Positions 17,901 to 20,457 of a stretch of DNA of 33,757 nt are shown piece by piece. Position 1 is the first letter of the stretch, and each line of letters starts with the position of its first letter. Both the position numbers and the translations under genes were made by a program. The notes below the pieces were generated by a model, which had not been told where the DNA came from, ran no database searches, and saw nothing but the letters and a program-made list of their open reading frames with translations. The stretch is from positions 1 through 33,757 of IMG/VR virus record IMGVR_UViG_3300047491_000055; one strand, 5' to 3'. This DNA comes from a virus.

Positions 17901-18122
17901 ATGGATTACATTCGGGAAGCGGCTTTCGAGCTGCGTATGTCACAACGGCAGCTTGCCAAAGAACTAGGGGTGTCTGACCAGGCGCTTCGCAACTATCGCA
18001 TGGGGAAGCAAAGCCTTCCAGTAAAGCTATGCGTTCAAATCGAACAGATGACAGGAGGAAAAATTACCCGAAAACACTTGCGCCAAGATTGGGCTGAGTT
18101 GTGGCCGGAACTGGGGGTTTGA
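17901..18122 (+). CDS. YdaS/Cro-like HTH transcriptional regulator
   Basis: A 73-residue protein with its ATG behind CGGAGGAAGT. The helix-turn-helix spans about 12-34: LRMSQRQLAKELGVSDQALRNY. The C-terminal part follows the YdaS-like pattern LPVKLCVQIEQMTGGKITRKHLRQDWAELWPEL, seen in Cro-type repressors of lambdoid and Mu-like phages. It likely binds the palindrome over its own promoter. No CI-like partner repressor is visible in the window. It is followed by the initiator gene one base after its stop. Confidence 0.85.
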   Translation: MDYIREAAFELRMSQRQLAKELGVSDQALRNYRMGKQSLPVKLCVQIEQMTGGKITRKHLRQDWAELWPELGV

Positions 18123-18123
18123 G

Positions 18124-18846
18124 ATGAATACCAACAAACCTGCTCGTTGGTTTCGGATGTATGCCGAGTTTGCTTCTGACCCGAAGCTACAGATGCTATC
18201 TGAGTGCTATCAACGGCGTTACTTGATGATATTATGCTTACGTTGCAGTAACGGAGATGTAACGTTACAAGATGTTGAAGTAGCGTTTCAGTTACGCATT
18301 GATGTAACAGAATGGGAGAAAACGAAGGCTATTTTTGTAGAAAAAAACCTCATCAATAATCACAACCAACCTATCGCATGGGAGAAGCGTCAATTCGCCT
18401 CAGACTCAAGCGCAGAACGGGTTGCAGCACATCGAGCAAGAAAGAAAGACGAATGTAACGTTACAGTAACGCCACCAGAGAAAGAGAAAGAGAAAGAGTC
18501 AAAGAAAGAGAAAGAGAAATCTAACGCTGACGCGTTGGATGGATTTGATGAGTTTTGGGTTATCTACGAACGCAAGGGAACAAAGAAGCAAGCAATGGCT
18601 CGATGGAAAAAGATAAATCCTTCTATCAAACTACAGCTTGAGATTTATGATGCTGCTCGTTTGTACGTCAAGGCAACGCCAGACATTCAGTTTCGTAAGA
18701 ACGCAGAAACATGGCTTAACAACGAATGTTGGAATGATGTGATACACGCACCCAAACCTAAAGCTATTGGGTTCTTTGGTCAACTAGGAATGATGGGAGA
18801 TGGGAATGAACAATTACCGCCAGCCCTTACCGGCAATCTGGGTTAG
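18124..18846 (+). CDS. Putative replication initiator (O-like)
   Basis: A 240-residue protein. The N-terminal about 100 residues resemble phage replisome organisers: KPARWFRMYAEFASDPKLQML, then a winged-helix-like region. A Lys/Glu-rich linker (about 118-132) comes from a polypurine DNA tract. The C-terminal part (DGFDEFWVIYERKGTKKQA, ARWKKINPS, AETWLNNECW) matches a domain common in phage replication proteins. Several GTAACG/CGTTAC elements lie within the gene, as lambda's origin lies within O. It overlaps the P-like loader gene. The role is inferred from pattern and neighbours. Confidence 0.7.
   Translation: MNTNKPARWFRMYAEFASDPKLQMLSECYQRRYLMILCLRCSNGDVTLQDVEVAFQLRIDVTEWEKTKAIFVEKNLINNHNQPIAWEKRQFASDSSAERVAAHRARKKDECNVTVTPPEKEKEKESKKEKEKSNADALDGFDEFWVIYERKGTKKQAMARWKKINPSIKLQLEIYDAARLYVKATPDIQFRKNAETWLNNECWNDVIHAPKPKAIGFFGQLGMMGDGNEQLPPALTGNLG
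18217..18519 (+). other. Candidate replication origin: iterons plus polypurine tract
   Basis: Two perfect palindromes TGTAACGTTACA (18258-18269 and 18454-18465) are joined by single GTAACG-type or inverse elements at 18217-18222, 18248-18253, 18291-18296, 18304-18308 (GTAAC only) and 18466-18471. A nearly pure A/G tract follows at 18477-18519. This layout, iterons then an easily melted asymmetric tract inside the initiator gene, is like lambda ori. Candidate only. Confidence 0.5.
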
Positions 18847-19441: not shown

Positions 19442-19777
19442 ATGAAAACACTAGACGAAATCGACATTTTTGAAACTTTGGAATACATTAAACGAACCGC
19501 CCCAAAGTACGCACAAGCTAAAGCAGAGCGTATCTACCTTGAGGAATATCGCAAAAGCCTAAAAGCTGCTTTGATGGCTACCCAGATTGGCGATGCTGTA
19601 AACGCCCAAGAAAGATATGCTTATGCCCACCCAGATTACACATTACACCTGGAAGGCATGAAAGAAGCTATCGCAAAGGAAGAAGAATACCGCTGGAAGC
19701 TAGTAGCCGCCCAAGCCCTTGTAGAAGTATGGCGCAGTCTTTCGGCTAATCAACGTGCAGAGGCAAAGGTATTGTGA
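19442..19777 (+). CDS. Conserved helical phage protein, 111 aa
   Basis: A 111-residue, almost fully helical protein: TLEYIKRTAPKYAQAKAERIYLEEYRKSLKAALM, then KEAIAKEEEYRWKLVAAQALVEVWRSL. This pattern occurs in small proteins of phage replication or recombination regions; I know no function. It ends in an overlap with the Mom-like gene (TTGTGA). Confidence 0.65.
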   Translation: MKTLDEIDIFETLEYIKRTAPKYAQAKAERIYLEEYRKSLKAALMATQIGDAVNAQERYAYAHPDYTLHLEGMKEAIAKEEEYRWKLVAAQALVEVWRSLSANQRAEAKVL

Positions 19778-20457
19778 AAATACTAAGCATAAAATCAGAA
19801 GAAACTTATGATTGGTTGCTTAGGGTTCATTACGCAAAAAGAATACCGCCTATTTCATATTGTTTTGGATTGTTTGTGGAAAACGAACTTGTTGGTGTTG
19901 TTACATACGGAGTGCCTTCATCATCAACTTTGCGCGATGGAATAGCAGGAAAAGAAAATTCTGACAAGGTTTTAGAGTTAAATCGGCTTGTTTTTTCAAA
20001 ACCAATAAAAAACGGCCCAAGCAAACTTGTTTCATCCAGTCTTGCGTTGCTTCCGAAGCCAAGTATTGTTGTAAGTTATGCGGATACGGAGCAGGGGCAT
20101 ATTGGGTATGTTTATCAGGCTTGTAATTTTATCTACACCGGATTATCGGCAAAGCGTACAGATTGGAAAGTAAAAGGATTGGAACACTTGCATGGGCAAA
20201 CAATAGCAGACATGAGCAAAGCCGCTATCGGAACAGATAAAAGCCGAGTTCAATTTATGCGAGAAAAGTTTGGGGATAATTTTTACTTGAAAGATAGGGC
20301 GCAAAAACACCGATATATTTATGTTTGCGCTAAAAATCCAGAAAAAACACGGATTGAACAACAAATAAAATATAAAACACAACCATATCCAAAAGGTAAC
20401 AGCCAAAAATACGACATAACTTATAATCCACAATCACAAATTTTGCTGTTTGCGTAA
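19774..20457 (+). CDS. mom: Mom-family DNA adenine modification protein
   Basis: A 227-residue protein with a GTG start overlapping the preceding stop. It has the Mom family marks: HYAKRIPP at 19-26, a LVGVVTYG-x-P segment at 39-48, LELNRLVF at 67-74, SSSLALL and SYADTEQGHIGYVYQACNFIYTG at 101-123. Phage Mu Mom has a GNAT-like fold and converts adenine in DNA to an N6-carbamoylmethyl form, shielding it from restriction. This copy is A/T-richer than its neighbours, consistent with transfer. No separate regulator like Mu com is recognised nearby. The family assignment is good; the chemistry in this phage is inference. Confidence 0.85.
   Translation: MKILSIKSEETYDWLLRVHYAKRIPPISYCFGLFVENELVGVVTYGVPSSSTLRDGIAGKENSDKVLELNRLVFSKPIKNGPSKLVSSSLALLPKPSIVVSYADTEQGHIGYVYQACNFIYTGLSAKRTDWKVKGLEHLHGQTIADMSKAAIGTDKSRVQFMREKFGDNFYLKDRAQKHRYIYVCAKNPEKTRIEQQIKYKTQPYPKGNSQKYDITYNPQSQILLFA

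Follow-up and report, generated by a model that had tools for sequence, protein, structure and literature searches.

The region 18124-18846 (plus strand) of the window, a virus record analysed as one stretch of 33,757 bases, is very probably a temperate-phage replication origin embedded in its own initiator gene, a reading reached by sequence comparison without any experiment. The comparison establishes the existence of the sites, their pairing, the concordance of their variants, their phasing, the fixed position of the adjacent tract, constraint at the DNA level, covariation between residues and bases, and swapping of the C-terminal part. The first-pass annotation had proposed a lambda-like iteron origin inside the initiator gene; the arrangement was borne out by the comparative evidence, but membership of the O family and a single tandem block of sites were not.

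The initiator gene and its genomic context

The gene encodes 240 amino acids and comprises a winged-helix N-terminal part, a basic helix, a linker encoded by the tract and a swappable C-terminal part. Residues 5-135 match the PHROG profile phrog_10469 ('DnaD-like helicase loader', E 7.2e-18), residues 104-211 match phrog_270 ('replication initiation protein', 8e-13), and the C-part also matches 'primosomal' PHROG families; no Pfam family was matched up to E 0.1. A Cro/YdaS-like gene (17901-18122) lies directly upstream, and Mom-like, NinG and exonuclease genes follow some distance downstream, so the gene order around the initiator is lambdoid. The Mom-like DNA modification gene (19774-20457; Pfam Mom, 8.5e-39) is situated in the early region, shortly past the initiator. 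Cumulative GC skew has its minimum at about 17.5-18 kb, and a distant minimum, which had been named beforehand as a finding that would refute an origin here, was thus not encountered. This is weak evidence, because leftward and rightward genes diverge at the same place, and skew was rejected as proof of the origin since it is confounded by divergent transcription.

The codons for residues about 23-90 (18190-18393, plus strand) were assigned to the winged-helix domain from an AlphaFold model and structure matches. The N-part is predicted to be a winged helix, and the wing and helix are modelled with only moderate confidence (mean pLDDT 81 for the N-part, only 60-69 for the basic helix). VIA-align returned generic winged-helix matches over model residues 19-85 with Z up to 8.7, which is not decisive; the N-domain of pSK41 RepA scored Z 7.5, tied with generic winged helices, and DnaD was absent among the matches listed. 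DnaD was present in the Foldseek list, where the best matches also include the pSK41 RepA N-domains (4pql, 4pt7, 4pta), but the matches are weak (E 0.1, TM 0.43). Searched by sequence against solved structures, the N-part matched only 30S ribosomal protein S21, which was discarded as spurious, and the basic helix alone matched nothing.

Paired palindromes and half-sites

The palindrome TGTAACGTTACA occurs exactly twice in the window, at 18258-18269 (site 1) and 18454-18465 (site 2), with starts 196 bases apart, as the first-pass annotation had described. Both are putative initiator sites without an assigned strand, and they are read in different frames: site 1 is GAT GTA ACG TTA CAA (DVTLQ) and site 2 is TGT AAC GTT ACA (CNVT), in agreement with the peptides DVTL and NVTV (CNVTV) named earlier. 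Five further half-sites or near matches had also been counted; three of them are exact, at 18217-18222 (CGTTAC, that is GTAACG on the minus strand), 18248-18253 and 18466-18471 (both GTAACG on the plus strand), whereas the rest are only near matches. The window as a whole holds 21 copies of GTAACG/CGTTAC against a shuffle mean of 13.3, a number reached or exceeded in 2 of 100 shuffles. Of these copies, seven lie inside 18217-18471, four of them within the two palindromes. When the codons of the window gene were shuffled synonymously, a mean of 2.5 best-type half-sites was obtained against the seven observed and none of 200 shuffles reached seven, which upholds the earlier argument that repeated codons are a poor explanation.

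Relatives of the initiator gene were collected by alignment-based searches of viral and bacterial contigs (357 loci, 215 distinct sequences), and hundreds of phage and prophage contigs proved to have the palindromes in a homologue. When viral contigs were scanned for a pair of TGTAACGTTACA copies separated by 182-186 bp, 18 contigs were recovered, all with a distance of exactly 184 bp, and in all 18 the pair sits in a homologue of the window initiator gene. We also searched 206 unique homologous genes de novo for any repeated 10-bp palindrome, with no motif assumed: GTAACGTTAC was repeated within one gene in 67 genes, GTGACGTCAC in 20, GAAACGTTTC in 17 and GCAACGTTGC in six, and besides these four variants only one unrelated palindrome was found. 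Wherever a non-redundant gene contains two perfect ACGT palindromes, both copies are alike and are GTAACGTTAC, GTGACGTCAC, GAAACGTTTC or GCAACGTTGC (72/72 genes; 38.8 expected if the copies were independent). Some homologues have only the downstream cluster, the upstream site being missing. Among the papers covered by a literature search, none mentions TGTAACGTTACA or GTAACGTTAC in a phage origin.

Half-sites reach 12.9/kb in the first 450 nt of the genes and 0.43/kb in 530 kb of flanks, an approximately thirty-fold difference, and 170 palindromes were counted in the first 450 nt against four in the flanks; an equal density elsewhere, which would have refuted the origin, is therefore not what is seen, either here or in the window. 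A pattern of this kind might be produced without any DNA function by codon bias, by conserved peptides or by slippage of repeats, and the peptides at the sites (DVTL, NVTV) are conserved within clades; tandem repeats, for their part, expand by slippage. Synonymous shuffling, however, falls far short of the data: 747 half-sites were observed compared with 285 in shuffled genes (sd 9, maximum 318), and a repeated palindrome is found in 74 of 124 genes compared with 0.6 (maximum 3). Concordant palindrome pairs occur in four frame combinations, mostly in different frames and encoding different peptides, and the site-1 codons GTA ACG TTA are used in 55/55 genes of the type, in which TTA otherwise makes up 11% of Leu codons. 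This explanation is already contradicted, and we give it almost no credence; the tract, treated below, adds further evidence against it.

In seven loci (L079-L081 and L352-L355), the first ~20 initiator residues (MANQWFRMYAEFATDPKVQMLSE) are joined to an HNH-endonuclease-like ORF, and these are apparently remnants or fusions of the initiator gene start.

Helical phasing of the sites

Across 112 palindromes of the type, half-sites are placed at exactly -11 and +11 bp, and also at about -42 and +43. The window conforms to this arrangement: the half-site at 18248-18253 lies 11 bp upstream of the site-1 core (offset -11, at 55/112 palindromes), that at 18466-18471 lies 11 bp downstream of the site-2 core (offset +11, at 29/112), and that at 18217-18222 stands at -42 from the site-1 core, an offset and strand shared by 15/112. 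Distances from palindrome to palindrome in 92 genes are 196, 207-209, 217-219, 228-230 or 238, and step by one helical turn (permutation p < 1/5000: for the eleven distinct values alone, 0/5000 random sets matched the observed phasing). The inference suggested by these spacings is that both site clusters have to lie on one face of the helix, as they would in a looped complex.

Covariation between the basic helix and the half-sites

Behind the winged helix follows a basic helix, SDSSAERVAAHRARKK (residues 93-108; 18400-18447, plus strand), which is the proposed DNA-reading helix, although binding data are lacking. Its residues 97 (codon 18412-18414) and 100 (codon 18421-18423), both encoded on the plus strand, co-vary with the half-site type, as judged in 138 non-redundant genes of several families by their dominant NNNACG word. 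Genes with GAAACG have T97 and V100 in 26/26 cases, whereas T97 occurs in 11/72 GTAACG genes, in which residue 97 is mostly A and V100 is present in 69/72. T100 is found in 21/23 GTGACG genes (the remaining two have Q or S) and in 0/72 GTAACG genes, GCAACG genes combine T97 with S100 (7/7), and CGAACG genes have A100 (3/3), so that V, T and S at residue 100 correspond to GWAACG, GTGACG and GCAACG. Within V100 genes, GAAACG makes up a fraction of 0.62 of the half-sites if residue 97 is T and 0.19 if it is not. The window protein, with A97, V100 and GTAACG sites, agrees with this rule, and the motif of the basic helix is also present in a member of Phage_rep_org_N (L461), which follows the rule for residue 100.

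In an unbiased scan of 98 columns, residue 97 ranks first for GAAACG versus GTAACG and residue 100 for GTGACG versus GTAACG. The half-site type switches 34 times on the domain tree, and in phylogenetically independent pairs residue 97 tracks the site 9.5:0 and residue 100 6.5:0. Residue 97 was first spotted by eye on overlapping data; the trees, based on about 85 residues, are poorly resolved with many unsupported branches, and the independent pairs were drawn from unsupported branches as well as supported ones; relatedness is not taken into account in the Fisher values for the covariation. Residues 97 and 100 appear to read DNA letters of the half-site, an interpretation that rests on covariation alone and has no binding data behind it. 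A likeness of the basic helix (S96-x7-R104) to the basic region of eukaryotic bZIP proteins (N-x7-R), which also meets palindromes with an ACGT core, was noted but not used as evidence.

Two identical palindromes could also pair with each other as a long-range stem in the mRNA (P1-P2) and regulate translation; any palindrome present in two copies can do so, and such pairing would explain why the variants are concordant. It leaves unexplained the half-sites at 11 bp, the helical phasing, the fixed distance to the tract and the covariation with residues 97 and 100, and homologues with the downstream cluster only do exist, which makes a role as mRNA stem scarcely believable compared with one as protein-binding sites in an origin.

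The purine tract as a DNA element

The near-pure A/G tract of 43 bases that had been reported behind the sites was located at 18477-18519 (plus strand), with one T and one C; the description as A/G-rich stands, and is refined here to a short-period AGA repeat, in the window a period-6 AGAGAA. It encodes EKEKEKESKKEKEK, is proposed as the unwinding or loading element, and starts 5 nt past the end of the last half-site, to which it is joined through the GC cluster CG-CCACC (18470-18476, plus strand). The linker between half-site and tract generally measures 4-5 nt and is mostly GC-rich (usually CG-CCCCC, CG-CCCT or CG-CCACC), and in 94/108 genes the first AGA stands 4-5 nt past the last half-site. 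The tract is built from AGATAC units with period 6, from AGAAC units with period 5, from a mixture of the two with period 11, or from rarer units, among them the AGAGAA of the window. Period-5 AGAAC tracts, which are translated as EQNRT repeats, ignore codon length, as do the mixed period-11 tracts, and this speaks against the explanation by codon bias, conserved peptides and slippage. In DT tracts GAT is used in 202/204 cases and ACA in 204/204, compared with 47% and 24% elsewhere; conversely, the DT peptide spelled with other codons was found in 56 ORFs, with no replication protein among 25 of 65 families listed, which also tells against conserved peptides. The codon choice indicates that the tract is conserved as DNA and not as peptide.

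We then searched viral contigs for the tract alone. Outside the initiator family it was present in at least 117 other ORFs. Among these, at least 51 have a PHROG match to 'DnaD-like helicase loader', and dozens have one to replication initiation or primosomal families; Pfam assigns at least 20 to DUF1376, at least eight to Phage_rep_org_N, at least three to DUF6291 and at least two to Lin1244_N. ACG/CGT words are dense upstream of the tract in these other families, 68/109 having at least four in 60 nt compared with 8% of control segments. At DUF1376 loci (L361, L366, L367, L396 and others), CAACG/CGTTG-type repeats precede an AGATAC tract. Judged from these comparisons, several initiator families share the low-complexity linker as an element of their DNA, which is a new finding.

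For a minority of the tract matches the surrounding gene is unrelated, for example a cytosine methylase. Four C5 cytosine methylase genes (in L483, L491, L504 and L512) contain AGAAC tracts of 24 nt or more, which encode EQNRT repeats in mid-protein and lack an initiator-like array upstream.

Two candidate roles for the tract were rejected. CTG on the complement is a primase start site, and repeated start sites would agree with AGATAC and AGAAC units, whereas AGAGAA and AGAAG do not allow them. The single-strand motif of DnaD, TnnT (PMC10201434), is contained in the complement of AGAAC and AGAGAA but is absent from that of AGATAC, and DnaD can thus not serve as a general reader of the tract through this motif.

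The palindromes might instead be operators through which the initiator or the Cro-like product of 17901-18122 regulates transcription, replication starting elsewhere; palindromic sites of a winged-helix protein do resemble operators, and the Cro/YdaS-like gene is an immediate neighbour. However, the sites lie about 130-340 nt into the coding region of the initiator gene, away from a promoter position, they co-vary with the initiator's own residues, the distance from the end of the array to a tract conserved as DNA is fixed, and the annotation of the family is that of a helicase loader or replication initiation protein. Operators as the sole function are improbable on these grounds, whereas autoregulation alongside origin function is not excluded.

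Exchange of the C-terminal part

The C-terminal part (18529-18846, plus strand), presumed to recruit the helicase or primosome, is swapped between close relatives: in 488 of 1137 pairs with N-parts at least 75% identical, the C-parts are unrelated. Set against its closest relative (L002, 95%-identical), the window shows a fall in DNA identity from about 27/30 to chance within the tract. If the binding domain and its sites travel together and the C-part is exchanged at the repeat, this explains the mosaicism. One initiator-like protein (L510:10650-11810, minus strand) has a GTAACG array and an AGAAC tract followed by a DnaA_N domain (E 3.7e-8), and is by its domain order a natural fusion of phage origin binding, itself inferred, with a DnaA domain-I module. 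In DnaA this domain contacts the helicase, and its position after the tract fits a helicase-recruiting role of the C-part.

Proposed mechanism and comparison with known systems

For the origin we propose that initiator dimers would occupy both palindromes, which are separated by about 200 bp, and would do so via the winged helix and the basic helix behind it, in which residues 97 and 100 would read bases 2-3 of the half-site GNNACG. Further subunits may fill the half-sites at 11-bp steps on the same face of the DNA, and the two clusters may meet in a looped complex. The array would point at the adjacent AGA-repeat tract, where the strands may open and expose a single-stranded loading site, and the exchangeable C-terminal domain would recruit the host helicase or primosome. 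Binding, looping, unwinding of the tract and helicase recruitment are inferred.

In lambda, four iterons and an AT-rich tract are located in the middle of gene O (PMC7466680). The window likewise has initiator-type sites and an adjacent asymmetric tract inside its initiator gene, which meets the test of arrangement, in the order binding part, origin and C-part, and iteron number varies between relatives in both. Unlike O, the window protein has no Pfam match and so no match to the O family, its PHROG matches being DnaD-like loader, replication initiation and primosomal rather than O-like; its sites are grouped in two clusters separated by about 200 bp, with half-sites phased at 11 bp, instead of one tandem block, and in its family the tract consists of an AGA repeat of period 5/6 that follows a GC cluster. 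In the RepA_N plasmid pSK41 the Rep boxes are situated centrally in rep and encode a dispensable linker (PMC5703833). Shared with RepA are the placing of the (here inferred) origin in mid-gene, where it encodes a linker, and the separate C-terminal domain, and the predicted N-terminal winged helix may correspond to the DnaD-like one of RepA; a RepA_N Pfam match is missing, the structural similarity is only weak, and, unlike the four Rep boxes, site 1 of the window falls within the code for the binding domain. By analogy, the window origin would work like lambda oriO or the pSK41 RepA origin, while sequence tests place its protein in neither family. Members of Phage_rep_org_N (PF09681) and DUF1376 also have the AGA tract after repeats; the window protein itself matches neither PF09681 nor PF07120 up to E 0.1, and distant tract-bearing relatives do match PF09681 (L461 at 1.8e-7, L431 at 0.002).

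The basal unwinding system of oriC consists of DnaA boxes, a GC cluster and the DnaA-trio, with the trio consensus 3'-[G/A]A[T/A]-5' (PMC7561715, PMC6669920). The window shares with it the succession of a double-strand initiator box, a short GC-rich spacer and a short-period repeat on one strand, but the initiator differs, and the units AGATAC, AGAAC and AGAGAA misfit the consensus and so fail the test for this system.

Three features of this probable origin are new: sites that come in pairs, switch together and are phased to the helix; the apparent code of two residues; and the linker as a shared DNA element. Tentatively, and with more doubt than conviction, we propose in combination that the AGATAC/AGAAC tract may be a shared phage origin element with one common partner whatever the initiator family, a phage counterpart of the DnaA-trio, and that the basic helix SD-S-[A/T]-x-R-[V/T/S/A] may be a short amino-acid-to-base code that sets origin specificity and thereby the replication compatibility group; candidates for the partner are a host helicase, primase, loader or single-strand binding function. 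The covariation offers a testable two-residue recognition code for an initiator family without a solved DNA complex. Annotated phage replication proteins often contain low-complexity linkers such as DTDTDT, EQNRTEQNRT, EEKREEK and EKEKEK; here these seem to arise only because an origin element happens to be translated, which would provide a simple rule to locate origins in hundreds of viral and prophage contigs that have no annotated one.
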